The notes under the pieces were generated by a model. The model saw only the letters and a program-made list of their open reading frames with translations, had not been told where the DNA came from and ran no database searches. Both the position numbers and the translations under genes were made by a program. From positions 1-64,000 of the forward strand of contig JAUNDT010000008.1 in the NCBI GenBank assembly GCA_030525945.1: 64,000 bases of DNA, in the 5' to 3' direction. This stretch comes from Coriobacteriaceae bacterium. Its GTDB lineage: Bacteria > Actinomycetota > Coriobacteriia > Coriobacteriales > Coriobacteriaceae. This document shows, one piece after another, positions 1,800-56,764 of this stretch (the first letter of the stretch is position 1; every line of letters starts with the position of its first letter).

Positions 1800-1964
1800 G
1801 GATTAACGGTAGCACAAAACGTCTCGAGCAATAACGTCAAAATAGGCTATCTACCTGCGAATTTAATGGTAAGAAGAGGGGCAGATTTGGGTCAGATGTA
1901 GGGCAGAACGGCCCATGTTTACCATTGGATGCAAGACAGCTCGGCTCGTGTTTGCCGTCAGATT

Positions 1965-2190
1965 TGACGTGGGTCGACTGAGGGAGCCGATGTGGGTAGC
2001 TGAATGAGGGTCGATGTGGGTAGCTGAATGAGGCTGCCGAGTACGGGGACGAGTGCAGGGTCGAATGAGGAAGTCGCCGCGTGTGAGGGCCAAGTGCGAA
2101 GCCGAGCGCTCGGTAGCAGCGGTTTGGGGCGACAGGTGCCGGGCGTGTGCGGGGGATCGAGTGCAGGGCCGAGTGCACGGACCCGGATGC
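1965..2190. repeat. Degenerate G-rich tandem repeat
   Basis: The gap 1800-2276 contains no credible gene. Two near-identical 24-bp units (gtcgatgtgggtagctgaat plus gagg) lie at about 1985-2035. They are followed by more degraded related G-rich units with recurring gagtgcagggc-type words up to about 2190. This is one of several locus-specific minisatellite-like tracts in the window. No function is evident. Confidence 0.5.
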
Positions 2191-2215
2191 AAAGTCCCTA
2201 ATCAAAAGTTTAACT

Positions 2216-2246
2216 GCAAGAAAAAGGGGCGCACGGGGCGCCCCTT
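2216..2246 (-). terminator. Intrinsic terminator of the 5-FCL gene
   Basis: AAGGGGCGC and GCGCCCCTT (2224-2232 and 2238-2246) form a 9-bp stem with a 5-nt loop. Read on the minus strand the stem is followed by a run of T (the A-run at 2216-2225 on the plus strand). It lies about 30 nt beyond the stop of the minus-strand gene at 2277-3050. Confidence 0.75.
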
Positions 2247-2276
2247 GCCATGCTCGCCTTGTGCTGGCGTGCGGTC

Positions 2277-3050
2277 CTACGCGGTAATGAAGCGCGGGAT
2301 CGTCCGGTCGTGCTTGTCGATCGGCACGGCTTCAACCTCCTGTTCGGCAAAAGCGACGCCGAGTAGCATGCAATCCTCGCGCAGCTGAGGCAGATAGCGG
2401 TCATACGTGCCGCGCCCGTAGCCCAGTCGGTTGCCCTGGGCGTCGAATGCCACCGCCAGGGCGATAACCAGGTCAATCTCGGAGGGCGGAATGACGGGGA
2501 AGCGCGTGTCGTCCTTGGGCGGCACGCTGCCCTTAACACGCGAGGGGATGAACCTGCGTGTGGCGCCCGCGCGGGTGCTCATGTACGTCTGGTGCTCCTC
2601 AGTAACGGCGGGGCCCCACGGCTTGCGCGGGTCGACGATGAACGGCACGTTGCCGCCCAGGTAGTTGTTGCACGAGACGGAGCGCATGGACATGGTTCCG
2701 GCGCTGGCATCGTTGGGCACGAGGCAGGGGAACACGATGCGGTAGCCGTATGCGTACGCTCCGCGGATAAAGCGGTCGAGGTCGACCTCGTAACGCAGGG
2801 CCGCGTACACCGCGAGCGTCGCGGGCTGCCCGCCCTTGCCCTTGATACCGCTGGCCTTGAGCAGCTCAAGCAACTGGTTGCAAATGTCGCGCGACTTGGC
2901 GGAGCGGGCGCTCGGGCGAATCTCCTGGCGGCGCTCAATGAGGTCGCGGCGCAACTCGGCCTTCTTGTCGAGCAGCTCCTGGGCCTGCGTGCTCGGCTGA
3001 AGTTCGTCGTTGGTGTCTGCGGTCTTCTTAGTGCGTTTAACGGCGGCCAT
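2277..3050 (-). CDS. 5-formyltetrahydrofolate cyclo-ligase family protein
   Basis: A 257-residue protein of the 5-FCL family (methenyltetrahydrofolate synthetase), which converts 5-formyl-THF to 5,10-methenyl-THF using ATP in the cytosol. The signature block near residues 205-232 contains DLVIALAVAFDAQG followed by RLGYGRGTYDRYL, the family's substrate/Mg-ATP loop. An N-terminal helix with RRDLIERRQEI matches the usual start of the fold. The first 30 residues are Lys/Thr-rich and extra. The central part has an insertion relative to the roughly 190-residue standard, so the protein is longer than typical. It is a single gene on the minus strand with its own terminator. Confidence 0.88.
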   Translation of the reverse strand: MAAVKRTKKTADTNDELQPSTQAQELLDKKAELRRDLIERRQEIRPSARSAKSRDICNQLLELLKASGIKGKGGQPATLAVYAALRYEVDLDRFIRGAYAYGYRIVFPCLVPNDASAGTMSMRSVSCNNYLGGNVPFIVDPRKPWGPAVTEEHQTYMSTRAGATRRFIPSRVKGSVPPKDDTRFPVIPPSEIDLVIALAVAFDAQGNRLGYGRGTYDRYLPQLREDCMLLGVAFAEQEVEAVPIDKHDRTIPRFITA

Positions 3051-3113
3051 AAAGCGGTCCTCTCAACGATGTGTTGCGCATTATTCTACCCCGTTGCGCG
3101 GACGCGGTGGCGT

Positions 3114-3156
3114 GCGCCCGCGCCGCACCGGCTGAGCGTCGGCGCGGGCGCTTTTT
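3114..3156 (+). terminator. GC-rich hairpin with T-run, oriented on the plus strand
   Basis: An 11-bp perfect stem GCGCCCGCGCC / GGCGCGGGCGC (3114-3124 and 3141-3151) is followed by TTTTT. It looks like an intrinsic terminator reading on the plus strand, yet both flanking genes are on the minus strand. It may block antisense transcription or be one of the many intergenic hairpins here. The rest of the gap 3051-3313 is G/C-rich with short gcgttgcggg repeats and no gene. Confidence 0.4.
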
Positions 3157-3313
3157 GCGGGGGTCCGGGCGTTGCGGGCGGCGTTGCGGGCGGAGTTGCC
3201 GGTGCGGTGAGCGGCGCCCCCCAGGCGAGACACACGGAGCCTTCTTCCGGAGAAACGCGCCACACCGCCGCTGCGGGCATTCGAGCCCGCGCGCCTCTCG
3301 TCGGCGTGCGCCC

Positions 3314-6300
3314 CTACGCCTCGTCCTGTCCGAGCAGATCCACGACATTCCAACCGGCAGCGCTCGCTTCGATGGCATCCCGACCGGCAAACACGCAGGC
3401 AGGAGCCTCGTTTGCCACACGCGTTACCTCGGCGGCCAGAGCGCGCAGCTGCTCCGGCGTCGCCGCGAGAATCTCCTGGCGCCTGAGCTCGCGTTCGCCT
3501 GCCGCGATTTTGCAGAAGTACTCGGCATTGCGGCGCTTGGTGAGCGCATACGGCTTAAGCGGGGCATCCATGCCGGAAACGCAGCTCACGATGAAGCCCT
3601 CGAAGGCATCCGCATCGGGCTCAAAGCGCTCGAGCCACGTCCCAGCCGCCTTGATGCGCTCCAGCGAGGCGTCGATCTCGGGGTCGCGGTACGTGTAGAA
3701 GCTCGCGTTGCGCTTGCCGCCCGCGCGGAAGCCGCAGCCGTACGCGCCGCCCTTCACGCGAATCTCGTTCCACAGGTAGTCGTAGGACAAAGCATTGGCG
3801 GCAACGCTCCATATGCCGTTCGTCTCGATGTCGAGCGTGCGCGGGTCGGTGGCGAGCGCCAGGTAGCTCACGTCACTCGGGATCACAAAGGCCTCGTGCT
3901 TGTCCTCGGGCCACGGAACGTAAAGCTCCTTGGTGGGCGCCGTGCGGGGGCTCAGCCCCAGGTCGCCCGCGGCGGTCCAATAACGCTGGAAGTCCTCATC
4001 CGAGCCGGTGAAGCTCGCGATGGCCCCGGTCGAGGTGAAGATGCGGTCGCGCAGGTCGCGTAGGGTGCGGCAGAGCTCGTCCTTGCGCTCGTCGAAGTTG
4101 TCGAGCAAATCGCGCAGGAACAGGTAGAAGTCCACGCCCGAGAGCTGCTGCACCAGCACAGCGGCGGGCGAGACGTAGGACAGGGCGCGCGCCAGGGCAG
4201 CGCTGTGCCCGTTCATGAGGAAGCTCTGCTCCAGGCCGATGCGCATCTGCGTGAGCACGTCGCGCATACGGTCCGTGTCCTCAAAGACGGTTTCGGACCA
4301 CACCTCGCGCGGGATGCGGGCGAGCGCGTCCATCTTCTCGGAAAGGGCGCCGGCCGACACGAGCAGGCGCGGGCGCGCGAGCTTCCAATTGGGCTGCGTG
4401 GCGACCTCCGTGGTAAAGGAAAGGAAGCCCAGGTTGGAGGCGATGTAGCTGTCGAGTTCGCCGGCACTCATGCGCTCGGTGGCGAGCTGCTGCATGAGGC
4501 GGGTGAGCACGGTCACGTACGGCAGCTCGGCAAACGCGAGATGGCTGAGGTCGAAGTACGTGAGCGCGTAGGCGAGCTGATGCGTGGGCAGGTTGTGGCG
4601 CAGGCAGGGGATGGGCGTCTGCTTGTTGAGGGTGAGCTGCGGCTCATGGCGCGCGGGACCGATGTCGCTCACGTGCAGGCGAGGCAGCGTGGCCTTGGCC
4701 TCGGGGGAATCCTCGGCTTCCTGACGCTCGCGAAGGGCCGCGACGTTGTCCAGGATGTTTTGGAGATCGGACGGCGTGAGCGTGGCTTTTTTGGCGGCGA
4801 GCTCGGCCTCCTCCGCGCTCGCGCCTTCGGCGGTCGTTGCCACGGGGACGAGCTCAACGAGGGCACTGTGGTTGCTGTCGAGCACGATTTCGCGCAGAAG
4901 GTCCTCGAAGAAGGTGGTGTTGAGGGCGCGCTTGAGCTCCTCGTATACGGCGCCGTACTCGAGCGCGCGCGTTGCCGCCGCGTCCGTGTCCTCGTAGAGC
5001 CAGGTGCCGAGCGCGTCGCAGGCGATGGCGACGCCGTCGGCGATGCCAAAGTCGCGCTGACGCAGGTCAAACTCCTCGCTGGCAAGGACCGCAGCCAGGC
5101 GATCGCGCGGAATACCCTCCTCCGCAAGGCGGCGGCATTCGTCCTCGACAACGCGGCGGAACTCGCGTGCGGATTCAGGTTGGGCGTTCTGCAAAATGAT
5201 GAGCGTGTGGGGCTGCAGCTGGTCGCCGGATGTATAGCTCACCACATTGCCGCCTAGGCCGGCGGCAAGAACCGCCTTTTTGACCGGGGCTTCGTTTGAC
5301 CCGAGCAGGGCGTCGAACATGATGTCCGCGGCGATCAGGCGCTTGCGGTCGGAGGCCTCGCCGAGCACGTATGCCATGCCTACCAGGGCGTTGTCGGGGG
5401 TGGTGGGCATCTCGACGCGCTCATAGTCGCAGACGACGGGCTGCTGGCGCACGAGCGGGTTGGGCGTGCCCGCGGTGCTCGCGGGGGCGTTGCAAGCCGC
5501 CGCCGTGCTGTCTTGGTCGTCCGCCAAGGGCGCCGCCGCCGTGCGCGCCCCCGCCGCGGCCAGCGCGCGGGCTCGGGCCGCTTCGTCGCGCAGTCGGGGC
5601 TCGTCTCCCAGATAGCGCTCATCCAAAAACGCCAGTTCACGCTCAATATGCATATCGCCGTACAGGACGATGTAGCTGTTTGCCAAGTTGTAATGGCGCG
5701 CGTGCGTGTCGAGGAACTCCGCGTAGGTAAGCTGCGGGATGGCGCGCGGGTCGCCGCCCGACTCGCAGGCGTAGGCGGTTTTCGGGAACAGCGCGCGGTT
5801 CACGGCGTCGTCGAGGACGCTCATGGGGTCGGAGAGCGCGCCTTTCATCTCGTTGAAAACCACGCCGTTGTAGCGCAAGGTGCCGTCGGAGGGCGAGCCG
5901 TCCTCGGGCATGTCGAGCTCGTAGTGCCAGCCTTCCTGCTCAAAGATGGAGGGCTTGGTGTAAATGGCGGGATTGAGCACGGCGTCCATGTATACGTCCA
6001 TGAGGTTGAGCAGGTCCTGCTCGTTGGTGCTCGCCACGGGATACACCGTTTTGTCCGGGTACGTCATGGCGTTGAGGAACGTCTGCATGGAGCTCTTGAT
6101 CAGGTCGACGAAGGGCTCCTTGACGGGGAACTTGGCGGATCCGCAGAGCACCGAGTGCTCCAGGATATGGAACACGCCGGTGTCGTTGGTGGGCGGCGTT
6201 TTGAACGCGATGGAAAAGGCCTTGTTCTCATCCTCGCAGGCAAGGTAGAGCACACGCGCACCCGAGGCGGCGTGGTGCATCACGTAGGCGTCGCCGTCGA

Positions 6301-50723: not shown

Positions 50724-52748
50724 ATGCATCAGTTCAAAACAGAGAGCAAGAAGCTGCTCGACCTCATGATCAACTCGATCTACACCAACAAGGAGATCTT
50801 TCTGCGCGAGCTGATCTCCAACGCGTCGGACGCCGTGGACAAGCTCAACTTCAAGAGCCTGTCCGATTCAAGCATCCAAATCAACCAGGGCGACCTGGCC
50901 ATCCGCGTGTCGTTCGACAAGGATGCCCGTACGCTCACCATCTCCGACAACGGCATCGGCATGACGGCTGAGGACCTGGAGAAGAACCTCGGCACGATCG
51001 CCCATTCCGGCAGCCAGGAGTTCAAGCAGGAGAACGCCGAGAGCCAGGGCGGCGACGTGGACATCATCGGCCAGTTCGGCGTGGGCTTCTACTCCGCGTT
51101 CATGGTCGCGTCCAAGGTCCGCGTGGTCAGCCGCGCGTTCGGCGAGGACGCCGCGCACGTGTGGGAGTCCGACGGCCTGGAGGGCTACACCATCGAGGAC
51201 GGCGAGCGCGACAGCCACGGCACCGATGTCATCCTCACCATCCGCGAGAACATCCCGGGCGAGAACGGCGAGCCCGGCGAGAGCTACGACACCTACCTGT
51301 CCGAGTGGGGCCTCAAGGACCTCATCAAGCGCTACAGCAACTACGTGCGTTATCCCGTCCAAATGATGGTCACCAAGAGCCGCGAGAAGGAGCGCCCCGA
51401 GGACGCCGGCGACGACTACACGCCCGAGTACGAGGACTACCAGGAGCTCGAGACCATCAACTCCATGACGCCCATCTGGAAAAAGCGCAGCTCCGACGTG
51501 TCAGACGAGGACTATAACGAGTTTTACAAGTCCACATTCCACGACTTTGAGGACCCGGCGCGCACGGTGAGCTTCCACGCCGAGGGCACGCTCGAGTACG
51601 ACGCACTGCTGTTCATTCCCTCACGCGCGCCGTTCGACCTGTACAGCAAGGACTACGAGAAGGGTCTGGCGCTCTACAGCTCCAACGTGCTCATCCAAGA
51701 GAAGTGCGCCGACCTGCTGCCCGACTACTACAACTTCGTGCGCGGCGTGGTGGATTCCCAGGACATCTCGCTCAACATCTCGCGCGAGACGCTGCAGCAG
51801 AACCGCCAGCTCAAGGCCATCGCCAAGCGCGTGGAAAAGCGCGTGACGAGCGAGCTCGAGAAGATGCGCGATGCCGATCGCGAGACCTACGAGGCCTTCT
51901 TTGAGAACTTCGGCCGCGGGCTCAAGTTCGGCATTTACTCGAGCTACGGTATGAAGGCCGACGAGCTCGCCGACCTGCTGCTGTTCTGGAGCGCGCGCGA
52001 GAACAAGATGGTCACGCTCGCCGAGTACGCCGCTGCCATGAAGGACGGCCAGACCGCCATTTATTACGCCGCGGGCGACAACCGCGACCGCCTGTCCAAG
52101 ATGCCCGTGGTCAAGAGCGTGCTCGATCGCGGCTACGACGTGCTGCTGCTCACTGCCGATGTGGACGAGTTCACGTTCCAGGCCATGCGCGGCTACACTG
52201 CCAAGAACCTCCCCAAGGTGTATGAGGACGACGCCGCTCGTGAGGCGGCCGCCAAGGCCGTGGCCGACGGTGCCGAGCCCGAGACTGAGGACCGCTTCCT
52301 CGAGCTCAAGAACGTGGCGACCGGTGATTTGGACCTTGCGACCGAGGACGAGAAGAAGGATGCCGAGGAGGCTTCCAAGGAGCATGAGGACCTGTTCGGC
52401 GCCATGAAGGACGCGCTGGGCGACAAGGTTGAGAAGGTCGCCGTCTCCGCGCGTCTGACCGATGCGCCCGCGTGCATCACTACCGAGGGCCCGCTGTCGC
52501 TCGAGATGGAGAAGGTGCTTGCGCGCGGCCCCGAGGCCGAGAGGGGCGAGATGCCCAAGTCCCAGCGTGTGCTCGAGCTCAACGCCAAGCATCCGGTGTT
52601 CGCCAAGCTCGTGGCTGCGCATGAGGCGGACGACAAGGACAAGATCGCCCTGTACGCTGGTCTTTTGTACGATCAGGCGCTGCTGGTCGAGGGTATTCTG
52701 CCCGCCGATCCGGTGGCCTTCGCCCAGAGCGTCTGCGAGCTCATGTAG
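50724..52748 (+). CDS. htpG: HSP90-family chaperone HtpG
   Basis: A 674-residue chaperone. The N-terminal GHKL ATPase has FLRELISNASDAVDKL, DNGIGMTAEDL, the lid IAHSGSQEF and GQFGVGFYSAFMVA. The middle domain has YCP-like FIPSRAPFDLYSKDYE and DSQDISLNISRETLQQNR. The C-terminal dimerisation domain is complete, ending near SVCELM. ATG 50724 has AAGGAGG upstream. The longer frame from 50424 runs through the terminator. No CIRCE or HAIR operator was recognised. A short palindrome CGCCGCTTGAGCGGCG lies at about 50638-50653. Confidence 0.97.
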   Translation: MHQFKTESKKLLDLMINSIYTNKEIFLRELISNASDAVDKLNFKSLSDSSIQINQGDLAIRVSFDKDARTLTISDNGIGMTAEDLEKNLGTIAHSGSQEFKQENAESQGGDVDIIGQFGVGFYSAFMVASKVRVVSRAFGEDAAHVWESDGLEGYTIEDGERDSHGTDVILTIRENIPGENGEPGESYDTYLSEWGLKDLIKRYSNYVRYPVQMMVTKSREKERPEDAGDDYTPEYEDYQELETINSMTPIWKKRSSDVSDEDYNEFYKSTFHDFEDPARTVSFHAEGTLEYDALLFIPSRAPFDLYSKDYEKGLALYSSNVLIQEKCADLLPDYYNFVRGVVDSQDISLNISRETLQQNRQLKAIAKRVEKRVTSELEKMRDADRETYEAFFENFGRGLKFGIYSSYGMKADELADLLLFWSARENKMVTLAEYAAAMKDGQTAIYYAAGDNRDRLSKMPVVKSVLDRGYDVLLLTADVDEFTFQAMRGYTAKNLPKVYEDDAAREAAAKAVADGAEPETEDRFLELKNVATGDLDLATEDEKKDAEEASKEHEDLFGAMKDALGDKVEKVAVSARLTDAPACITTEGPLSLEMEKVLARGPEAERGEMPKSQRVLELNAKHPVFAKLVAAHEADDKDKIALYAGLLYDQALLVEGILPADPVAFAQSVCELM

Positions 52749-52751
52749 TTG

Positions 52752-53080
52752 TGGGTTCGTGCAGCCTGGCGTTCGTGTAGTTGTGAGCTCGTTTTGCTGT
52801 GGGCTCGTGTAGCTACGGCCCCATCTAGCCGCGCGTTCACGTAGCTGCGAGCGCATGTGACTGAGGGCTATGTAGCTACGGGCTTATTTAGTTATGGGTC
52901 TAAGTAACTGTGGGTTCGTTTGGCAGCGAGCTCGAGTAACTGGGAGGTCACGTGACTGCGAGCGCATGTAACTGGGAGCTTATGCTCTTGTGAACTTACG
53001 TTGCCGTGGGCCCACGTAAAAGCAGACTCATATGGCTGTGGGTACATGTGGTTGCGCGTTCGTTTAGCTGTGGGCATATG
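52752..53080. repeat. 16-bp degenerate minisatellite after htpG
   Basis: About twenty head-to-tail units of almost exactly 16 bp, for example tgggttcgtttggcag, cgagctcgagtaactg and cgagcgcatgtaactg. Consensus is close to TGGGCTCATGTAGCTG. Composition is less GC-rich than the genes. No ORF with start signals. Confidence 0.75.
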
Positions 53081-53215
53081 TAGTTGCGTCGCGGCGCCCC
53101 ATCAGGTCCGATGGGGTGCCGCGCTTTTATTTCCCCCCGGTAATGGGCGCCTCTGGTTATGGGGTACTCGCCGTAATGGGAAGCCCCCGGTAAGGGCTCG
53201 TCCAAGGGCCAACCC

Positions 53216-53764
53216 TGCTGTCCTCTCACTCACCAGCAGAATCGTCCACTTTTCCGCTGTTTTTGCAGGCAAAAGGTGGCAATCTTTGCTGCTCTGCAGC
53301 CTACCAGCATGTTCGGCCGCTTTTGATACCCTGCGGGCCGCCGGCGTGTTGGCCCCATTTGCTGCCCTGCAGGCTACCAGCATCTTCAGCCGCTTTTGCC
53401 AGCCCATCCAGCTGAAAAAGTGGCAAAACGTGCTGCCCTTTTTCATGATTGTGAACTGCGGTCGGTCTTCAGCAGCCTGCCGCACGCCAAATTCTCGTTC
53501 CTCATTCTGAGACGAGAAGCTCGTTCAAGTTCAGAAGTAGCTAATTTTGCTGCCCTCTCACTTACCAGCAGAATCGGCCACTTTTCCGCTGTTTTTGCAG
53601 GCGAAAAGTGGCAAAACGTGCTGCCCTGCGGCAAAGCAGCACGCTGGGCCACGTTTACCGGCCGCGCCGCTTGCAAGGTGGCTCGTTGTGCTGCTCTCTG
53701 GCTCACCAGCACAACGAGCCACTTTTCGCCCTGGTTATTGATCAAAAAGTGGCGAAAACTGCTG
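53216..53764. repeat. Tandem array of nested hairpins (58-nt units, 13-nt linkers)
   Basis: Seven units that begin CAGCA and end TGCTG lie at 53234-53291, 53305-53364, 53378-53435, 53470-53552, 53566-53623, 53637-53693 and 53707-53764. Most contain an inner stem of the GCCACTTTT / AAAAGTGGC type. Six are 57-60 nt and one is 83 nt. Linkers are nearly always 13 nt (CCCTCTCACTTAC, CTCTGCAGCCTAC and so on). A lone TGCTG at 53216-53220 ends a lost first unit. Loop sequences differ. No gene lies in 52749-54196. Confidence 0.78.
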
Positions 53765-53774
53765 GTGAGCTGAG

Positions 53775-54045
53775 GTTGGCGGCGTCCGCTTGGCTCCGGG
53801 TGGCCAGCTGGTGCCGGGGCGTCTGCTAGGTTCCGGGCGTCTGGCTGGTGCTGGGGCGTCCGCCTGGTTTTGCAATGTTCGGCCAGTGACGGTGCGTGCA
53901 CAGACGCAGCGAACAGTAGGGGTGTCCGGCCAGAGCTGGGGCGTCCACTTGGTGTCAGAACATTCGGCCAGAGCCGGGGGCGTCCAGCCAGAGCCGGGGG
54001 ACGTCCAGCCGGCGCCGGGGGGCGGTCGGTTTGGCGCCGAAACGA
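53775..54045. repeat. G-rich degenerate minisatellite, about 20-bp units
   Basis: Units such as tctggctggtgctggggcg and tccagccagagccgggggac recur with 18-21 bp spacing at 53800-53870 and 53925-54040, separated by a less repetitive stretch. No coding support. Confidence 0.55.
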
Positions 54046-54196: not shown

Positions 54197-56764
54197 ATGG
54201 TCGTGAAAAAGTCCTTTCAGATCTTCAAGCGCGACGTAATGCGATTGCTGAAAAATCCCGTTGCGATGGTGATCACCATCGGCGTGTGCATCATCCCCTC
54301 GCTGTACGCGTGGTACAACATCGCGGCGAACTGGGACCCGTACGGCAGCACGGCGGGCGTGAAAATCGCGGTGGCAAACGAGGACGAAGGCACGTCAAAC
54401 GAACTCGTGGGCGAGCTCAACGCCGGCGAGCAAACCGTGGGCGAGCTCAAAAAGAACCATGACCTCGGCTGGGTCTTCACCGATGCCGAGCGGGCGCAAG
54501 AGGGCGTGCGCCGCGGCGACTATTACGCGGCGATCGTGATCCCTAAGGACTTCAGCAAGGACTTGACGAGCATGCTCACGGGCGAGTTCGAGCAGCCGAA
54601 GATCTCCTACTACGTCAACGAGAAAAAGAACGCGATCGCGCCCAAAGTCACCGACACGGGCGCGGAGACCATCGAGGAGCAAATCAACGAGACGTTCGTC
54701 TCGACGGTGAGTAAAACGCTGGCAACCCAGGCAAAAGCGCTGGGTGTTGACCTCAAAGCCCAGGCCGGGGAGGCGAAATCGGGCCTGCTCGCGCATATCC
54801 GTTCCTCCAAGGACGCGGTAACCACGGTTCGCACCTCCCTGGGCGGCATGGATGAGACCATTGCGGCGACCAAAAAGGCCGTGGGCGGCGCGCAAAGCAC
54901 CCTGTCGCAGCTCGACGGCCAAATCCCGAGCCTCATCAAGGCGCTCACCCAGGCCGACACCCTGATGGGCACCACGCGCGCGGCGGCGCGGGATTTCTCG
55001 ACGTCGCTCTCAACGGCGCTCACCGGCGGCGCAACGCAGCTCGGCGCGGCGTCGGCGAAGGCGAACGCGGCGGTAGGCACGGTGTCGGGCGTGGTGTCGG
55101 AGGCCAAGCTCAAAGCCGACATCGCCCTATCCAACCTGCAGTCCATCATCGACTCCAACACCAAGGTCATCGAGCTCCTCAAGCAGCTCAACGGCTCGGG
55201 CCATATCACGGGTGAGCTCGACAGCCTCATCGCGGGGCTCGAAGAGCAAAACGCAAATATGCAGGGGCTGAAGAACGGCCTGCAGGCCCAAAGCGACGCG
55301 GTGGGCCAGGACATGAACGCCGTCGAGGGCGCGGTGGGTGCGGTCAACACGGCGGTGCAGGGGAGCGTGGACGGCATCAACGGCGTGCACGAGCAGATGA
55401 GCACCACGGTGCTGCCGCAGATCTCGACGGGCCTCGACGCGTTTTCCGGCGTGGCGAGCGATCTTTCGGGCGTGGCCGCCGGCGCGCAACCCACCATCGA
55501 GCAGTCGGCGGGCATCCTTTCGCAGCTCAACGGCATGCTCGACCAAACCTCAACGGCGCTTGACGCAACGGACAAGGTGCTCGGCGACATCGAATCTATG
55601 CTCGACACCGCGGCAACGGACGTCGCGGCCCTGCGCAGCTCGGAGTCCATGCAGGAGCTCGCCGCCGCCCTCAACATGGACGCGGACGAGGTCGCCGAGT
55701 TCATGGCGTCGCCGGCGCTGCTCACCACCAAAGCTGTGTATCCCGTGGTCAATTACGGCTCGGGCGTCACGCCGTTCTACACCAATCTGGCCCTGTGGGT
55801 GGGCGGCTTCGTGCTCATTGCCATCTTCAAGCTCGAAGTGGACCGCGAGGGCATCGGCCACATCACCGCCATCGAGGGGTACTTTGGCCGCTGGCTGCTG
55901 TTGGTGCTGCTGGGCTTCGTGCAGGCGCTCATCGTGTGCGTGGGCGACCTGGCGCTCGGCATCCAATGCGAGCAGTCCGCCCTGTTCGTGCTTGCCGGCC
56001 TGTTCACATCGTTCGTATATGTGAATATCATCTACGCGCTGGCCATCACGTTTAAGCACATCGGCAAGGCCATCGGCGTCATTTTGGTCATCGTGCAGAT
56101 CCCGGGCTCGTCGGGCATGTACCCCATCGAGATGATGCCGGCGTTCTTCCAGGGGCTTCACCCGCTGCTGCCGTTCACCTACGGCATCAACGCCATGCGC
56201 GAGACCATCGGTGGCATGTACGGCGCCGACTACCTCGTCAACCTGGGTGTTCTGGCGATTTTCCTGGGGCTGGCGCTCATTTTGGGCGTGTGGCTGCGCC
56301 CGCTTCTGCTCAATCTCAACCTGCTATTTGACCACGAGCTGTCCGGCACCGACGTCATGATCTGCGAGAAGGACGACATGCCGCGCGAGCGCTTCAGCAT
56401 GCGCGCAACCATCCGCGCTCTGCTCGACACGCAGGCGTTCCGTCGTGACATCCTCGAGCGCGGGGCGCGGTTCGAGCGCCGGTATCCGCGCCTTATCAAG
56501 ATCGGCTTCGCGCTCGTGTTCGGCCTGCCGATTCTGCTGTTCATCCTCACCGCCACGCTTGACCTCGACATCGACGGCAAGCTCACCATGCTCGTGCTGT
56601 GGATTGTGGCGATCATCGCGGCGGACGCCTACATGATCGTGGTCGAGTACATGCGCGAAAGCCTGAACGTCCAGGCCCGCATGACGGCGCTTTCGGACGA
56701 GGAGCTGCACGACCAGATCGAGCGCGCCTTTCCCGTTGCGCGCCAGAAAGGGGGCGAGGAGTAA
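54197..56764 (+). CDS. YhgE/Pip-domain membrane protein (1)
   Basis: An 855-residue protein of the YhgE/Pip family (ABC-2-like permease fold). One N-terminal helix is followed by IPSLYAWYNIAANWDPYG, the family hallmark. A long extracytoplasmic helical region (about 200-500) is rich in Ala/Ser/Gln. Six or so membrane helices lie at about 520-730 (YGSGVTPFYTNLALWVGGF and SGMYPIEMMPAFFQGLHPLL are typical). Unlike its neighbour it has a cytoplasmic tail with two further helices (about 770-820). Homologues include lactococcal phage-infection protein and Esx-system-associated proteins. First of a two-gene operon. Confidence 0.88.
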   Translation: MVVKKSFQIFKRDVMRLLKNPVAMVITIGVCIIPSLYAWYNIAANWDPYGSTAGVKIAVANEDEGTSNELVGELNAGEQTVGELKKNHDLGWVFTDAERAQEGVRRGDYYAAIVIPKDFSKDLTSMLTGEFEQPKISYYVNEKKNAIAPKVTDTGAETIEEQINETFVSTVSKTLATQAKALGVDLKAQAGEAKSGLLAHIRSSKDAVTTVRTSLGGMDETIAATKKAVGGAQSTLSQLDGQIPSLIKALTQADTLMGTTRAAARDFSTSLSTALTGGATQLGAASAKANAAVGTVSGVVSEAKLKADIALSNLQSIIDSNTKVIELLKQLNGSGHITGELDSLIAGLEEQNANMQGLKNGLQAQSDAVGQDMNAVEGAVGAVNTAVQGSVDGINGVHEQMSTTVLPQISTGLDAFSGVASDLSGVAAGAQPTIEQSAGILSQLNGMLDQTSTALDATDKVLGDIESMLDTAATDVAALRSSESMQELAAALNMDADEVAEFMASPALLTTKAVYPVVNYGSGVTPFYTNLALWVGGFVLIAIFKLEVDREGIGHITAIEGYFGRWLLLVLLGFVQALIVCVGDLALGIQCEQSALFVLAGLFTSFVYVNIIYALAITFKHIGKAIGVILVIVQIPGSSGMYPIEMMPAFFQGLHPLLPFTYGINAMRETIGGMYGADYLVNLGVLAIFLGLALILGVWLRPLLLNLNLLFDHELSGTDVMICEKDDMPRERFSMRATIRALLDTQAFRRDILERGARFERRYPRLIKIGFALVFGLPILLFILTATLDLDIDGKLTMLVLWIVAIIAADAYMIVVEYMRESLNVQARMTALSDEELHDQIERAFPVARQKGGEE

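Follow-up and report, generated by a model that had tools for sequence, protein, structure and literature searches.

The hairpin array between positions 53201 and 53764 of the window (the whole 64,000-nucleotide stretch of DNA that was analysed) is best explained, with a probability of roughly 70%, as a small mobile palindromic DNA repeat, probably non-autonomous, that has expanded locally. The element is discrete, dispersed, fixed in its geometry, covaries as hairpins, and has been gained at sites that are empty in relatives; its dispersal and discreteness, together with the empty orthologous sites, therefore indicate a mobile palindromic repeat, apparently non-autonomous. A mobile doublet explains insertion, discreteness, and geometry together, while termination and RNA function each do not. 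The host is placed in Collinsella, a genus of gut bacteria, by inference from kinship, and its genome (G000, the window genome) is compared here with those of relatives including G054, G205, and G161.

The building blocks of the array are 20-nt arms (consensus CAGCACGnnnnGCCACTTTT) on alternating strands, separated by gaps of 13 and 18 nt, giving a period of 71; in this array two gaps deviate, at 17 and 20 nt. An arm profile places the alternating arms at a fixed spacing of 33 and 38 bp, and the arm boxes are near-invariant while the arm middle differs from unit to unit. The first-pass annotation had drawn a single array of seven nested hairpins, mostly of 57-60 nt, with CAGCA/TGCTG termini, an inner GCCACTTTT/AAAAGTGGC stem, and 13-nt linkers at a period of about 71. 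The termini, the inner stem, the unit length, the linkers, and the period are all present in the window sequence, and six of the units are reasonably intact (53234-53291, 53305-53364, 53378-53435, 53566-53623, 53637-53693, and 53707-53764), but the "seventh" amounts to half a unit near 53533, and approximately 90 bp of unrelated sequence (53444-53532, no strand assigned), without an arm partner at 53449 or 53495, divides the array into two blocks. Block 1 (53201-53443, forward strand) contains three units of alternating 20-nt arms located by the arm profile at the fixed 33/38 spacing, with R1/R3 model matches at 53201-53324, 53214-53311, 53285-53384, and 53358-53455. Block 2 (53533-53764, forward strand) contains hairpins at 53533-53585, 53604-53656, and 53674-53726 and a terminal arm at 53745-53764, and repeats 109 nt of block 1 at 83%. 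A coding reading of the array was rejected; 71 is not a multiple of three, so the frame would shift at every unit.

The array strand folds far more stably than its dinucleotide shuffles, with a z-score of -6.3 as RNA and -6.8 as DNA. The arms can pair either across the 18-nt gap, which gives the unit as first drawn, or across the 13-nt gap. Arm middles covary across the 13-nt gap (0.52 observed compared with 0.40 expected, p=0.001), while in the same test across the 18-nt gap the arms do not vary together (p=0.99). A three-species alignment gives the same outcome for the register, with 133 compensatory double-change cells compared with 58 in shuffles and at most 42 when slid, and isolated hairpins with 13-nt loops are present in G054. 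Since the arm middle covaries only across the 13-nt gap, the better-supported basic structure is a hairpin of 53 nt, with a 20-bp stem and a loop of 13 nt, that recurs at intervals of 71 nt and is joined to the next by an 18-nt linker. The earlier suggestion that structure matters is upheld, and the nested hairpin keeps its arms but gives way to the neighbouring pairing.

Hairpins of this kind lie on the forward strand of the window at 53272-53324 (loop CTCTGCAGCCTAC), 53533-53585 (loop CCCTCTCACTTAC), 53604-53656 (loop CCCTGCGGCAAAG), and 53674-53726 (loop CTCTCTGGCTCAC), the last being the most perfect, with 18 of 20 arm positions identical. The 18-nt linkers on the same strand at 53254-53271 (CCGCTGTTTTTGCAGGCA), 53586-53603 (CCGCTGTTTTTGCAGGCG), and 53727-53744 (CGCCCTGGTTATTGATCA) follow a directional consensus, C..CCCT.TTT, that is common to different species too. 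One complete 124-bp twin-hairpin unit (20-13-20-18-20-13-20) spans 53533-53656 on the forward strand; it matches model R3 with 99.7 bits and aligns without gaps with 18 other copies from three species.

The array is not isolated, as numerous others are present in the window genome. The 98-bp unit model R1 recovers approximately 34 copies, which occupy 15 places across 10 contigs of the window genome. In the parts of that genome examined, matches to the arm profile at a score of 17 or more are confined to the arrays, and 1.19 Mb of two close relatives contains none. Alignments of 98, 53, and 124 columns are gapless across copies and species, the 124-bp twin hairpin over 19 copies that represent three related species and as many arm sequences. 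Likeness between copies covers this twin hairpin and a few bases at each end and then stops; identity within the unit is 0.71-0.98 in the pairs compared (mean 0.61 over all pairs), while the flanks average approximately 0.28, about chance. For example, two copies on contig C7, separated by 430 bp, match at 93% and have left flanks that are unrelated. The first-pass annotation had named decayed transposon ends as an explanation that would count against its own, and this was near the mark in one sense, in that the unit is discrete and behaves as if inserted. Contig C8 contains two 98% identical elements (L039:2733-2860 and L039:4879-5010) in the same orientation on either side of one gene, which looks like that of a cell-wall-anchored surface protein and lies in the rpsL-rpoC interval (named from translations only).

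Searches with models R1, R2, and R3, which covered as many as 299 genomes of the order, placed clear members in three of them only, the window genome and, among its closest relatives, G205 and G054 (HtpG identity to the window genome 94% and 92%), with stricter filters, under which weak members may be missed, in the searches that covered more than 40 genomes. New arm types were sought in parts of G205, G054, and G126. There are approximately 34 core units in the window genome, fewer in G054, and one twin unit found in G205. The arms are uniform inside one genome and different between genomes, being AAAATGGTCG...TGCCA in G054 and AAAACGTCC...TGCTG in G205; one copy of the G205 type is present in the window genome, at C10:140417. 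Loop pattern and linker are constant across species and so, unusually, is the geometry, to the base, while the arms switch throughout a species. G205 also contains a further twin hairpin (L174:1093-1216) with arms GCGTAAACCGCCGGTTGAAA, 12-nt loops, and a 22-nt linker, possibly of related geometry. The exact core motif occurs in 17 stretches among 84,980 species genomes, 15 of them in unrelated taxa, and chance alone would produce a few. Two core-motif matches in the Collinsella genome G130 (L058:94-129 and L059:382-417) were set aside as near-perfect palindromes, GCCACTTTTGGTCGACACGTGTCGACCAAAAGTGGC, of another architecture, with an inner stem in common with the array.

Gain and loss can be followed at orthologous sites. 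In the window, htpG (50724-52748, forward strand) lies upstream of the array and the gene of a YhgE/Pip-like membrane protein (54197-56764, forward strand; named from its translation, not from a family search) lies downstream. The gap between them is 1.45 kb in the window compared with approximately 0.2 kb in G205, G054, and G161, where the htpG orthologues are followed by a gap empty of such an array. On contig C9 an element (L040:2880-3010) lies in frame within an EcfA-EcfA fusion gene (1925-4018), in the segment that links its two ATPase domains, where it is read through without a stop; it is absent from the orthologues in G205 and G054. One insertion in G054 is absent from G000 and G205. 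No target-site duplication, which together with terminal inverted repeats shared with an autonomous element would mark a MITE of a DDE transposon, is evident at the element ends compared, and this counts against the mobile-repeat explanation. At two orthologous sites the species have elements with different arms (G054 compared with G205, and G054 compared with G000); simple random insertion does not predict this, which counts against the mobile-repeat explanation, and the cause is either arm replacement in orthologues or a site preference. At two sites one species has another kind of palindrome in place of the twin hairpin. A different multi-hairpin element (CTAACGTCA...TGACGTTAG) is found on contig C10 (L240:15760-15960) in an intergenic region that has twin hairpins in G054 and G205, and G205 has a long palindrome (GCGTCGAGTGAGCGCTTTTCCAACGTTT...; L187:11800-11900) at the site of the third-type twin hairpin of the window genome. 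Other repeats occur in the htpG gap of the window, namely degenerate 16-bp repeats (GTGGGCTCGTGTAGCT-like) at 52733-53085, between the htpG stop codon and its terminator, and GC-rich tandem repeats of 37 bp and 21 bp (GGCGTCCGCTTGG... and GCCAGAGCCGGGGG) at 53781-54021, directly after the array; the former are absent from G205 and the latter from its htpG-yhgE gap.

The unit of the repeat is a pair of 53-nt hairpins joined by the directional linker of 18 nt; it measures 124 bp, and some extra bases are shared at its ends. In single-stranded DNA, such as the template of the lagging strand, the hairpins may be recognised by a transposase or nuclease that acts in trans, as proposed for REPINs, and would then be copied into mostly intergenic DNA. 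Arrays would subsequently grow by 71-bp tandem duplication between alternating arms. A more specific version, which is tentative and rather doubtful, is that a trans-acting factor enforces the exact 20-13-20-18 geometry and that the arm sequence it recognises is replaced genome-wide with species divergence, even at a shared site; the whole would be a REPIN-like system with a non-Y1 enzyme. The element separates what such a system needs (geometry, pairing, and linker) from what can change (arm sequence).

Transcription could account for the hairpins in another way, with each acting as a bidirectional terminator or insulator and the arrays as reinforced terminators between genes. Many stems are edged by three to four A 5' and three to four T 3', and different palindromes occupy the intergenic regions of different species. 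By gene context, as called with a simple codon score and not from curated annotation, seven of the 25 sites are convergent; however, 14 are tandem, two divergent, one in a gene, and one undetermined. The T runs are only about four long and several hairpins are without them, and the fixed 13/18 geometry is unnecessary for termination. Moreover, htpG already has a strong intrinsic terminator (53090-53123, forward strand; 14-bp stem and T run) upstream of the array and separate from it, with a similar terminator hairpin in the htpG-yhgE gap of G205. Termination or insulation is therefore an unlikely role for the repeat.

The rigid arm spacing and near-invariant arm boxes would also suit an array at which a DNA-binding protein docks by reading the 20-nt arms, in chromosome organisation or regulation, and arms that are uniform per genome but differ between genomes are expected if the reader protein changed its specificity. 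However, the arm middle changes freely and still pairs across the 13-nt loop, which a reader of duplex DNA would not need, and closely related species differ by gains and losses of sites. This explanation is regarded as improbable.

The processed multi-hairpin RNA offered in the first-pass annotation fares worse and is very improbable. The strong fold would suit it, as would the excess of G-U over A-C in the stems of the window genome (50 to 26), but the trend is opposite in G054 (9 to 14), and single-stranded DNA predicts the covariation equally. The array lies between the htpG terminator and the apparent promoter of the next gene (approximately 54140, after the array, as read by eye), a simple sigma-70 scan gave no promoter-like match around it, and no Rfam family scored above chance. 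Orientation relative to genes elsewhere is mixed, and one copy lies within a protein-coding gene.

In integrons, attC sites form an array of imperfect inverted repeats with cassettes between them. The window array shares the imperfect inverted repeats of approximately 57-60 nt, but cassettes are absent from between its units, a second hairpin register is better supported, and its copies lie on 10 contigs. The first-pass annotation was right that this does not look like a CRISPR or attC array; the copies are dispersed over 10 contigs and the linkers have a single consensus. Moreover, phage records gave no match, and the single match in viral contigs was a chance palindrome, apparently inside a coding stretch. 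Neither these readings nor phage origin nor termination only is supported.

The preferred mobile repeat works like the REP, BIME, and REPIN repeats, although it is not a proven member of them, and the statement that no counterpart has been described was too strong, as these are close functional counterparts. No description of such elements for Collinsella or Coriobacteria was found in the literature searched. Like REPs and BIMEs (PMC2817692, PMC3733652), the 53-nt hairpins are dispersed, mostly extragenic palindromes (at 15 places, with 23 of 25 sites intergenic), with regular spacing and alternating orientation (33/38 bp), occasional insertion in genes, and compensatory stem changes. The stem here has 20 bp and the loop 13 nt, whereas GTAG REP stems have 5-13 bp and CGTC stems 8-9 bp (PMC2817692, PMC3733652). 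In place of a GTAG/GGAG or CGTC foot, the feet are AAAAGTGGC, AAAATGGTCG, and AAAACGTCC, and in arms of the AAAACGTCC type CGTC sits within the stem. REP/BIME copy number is usually above 100, compared with approximately 34 in the window genome, and no RAYT (Y1) gene flanked by the same palindrome was found. With REPINs (PMC3116915) the element shares a doublet with a conserved spacer, discreteness against unrelated flanks, ordered tandem clusters, and pairing of copies. The doublet appears to be the replicating unit, in that likeness of copies spans the twin unit and ends near its edges, although G054 has some single hairpins alongside twin units. Differences from REPINs are that each half is itself a 53-nt hairpin, that the arms vary between species at fixed spacing, and that no cognate RAYT was found. 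The element is not classed as a REPIN because the GTAG/CGTC foot, the cognate Y1 transposase, and the high copy number are lacking. The Rickettsia palindromic elements RPE-4 and RPE-6 are CGTC REPs (PMC3733652), and some RPEs interrupt genes, like the C9 copy; sequence, clade, and arrangement differ, and only a single in-gene copy is present here.

REP- and REPIN-type repeats usually go with a RAYT transposase, and here one host species is without a Y1 gene, none having been found in G054. The element makes the hunt for the missing enzyme concrete. The window genome has one Y1 transposase gene, with flanking palindromes unlike those of the element, and model R2 gave no match around 21 Y1 loci. 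No mobilising enzyme was identified, which counts against the mobile-repeat explanation. A link to RAYTs is disfavoured by the other flanking palindromes that the Y1 genes examined carry, although a RAYT may have been lost or may act in trans. On contig C2 of the window genome (approximately 99.3-100.0 kb; L064:1117-1866), a Y1 (HUH) transposase gene has near-identical 20-bp palindromes (AAAATGCGYCATTTAGGGTC-A/T-GACCC...) on both sides and looks like a TIR-associated tyrosine transposase element. The palindromes of the Collinsella Y1 genes examined, GGGTC-A-GACCC and, at other Y1 loci of the genus, GGGAC-A-GTCCC (with an A/T centre), resemble those of TIR-associated transposases (PMC3733652).
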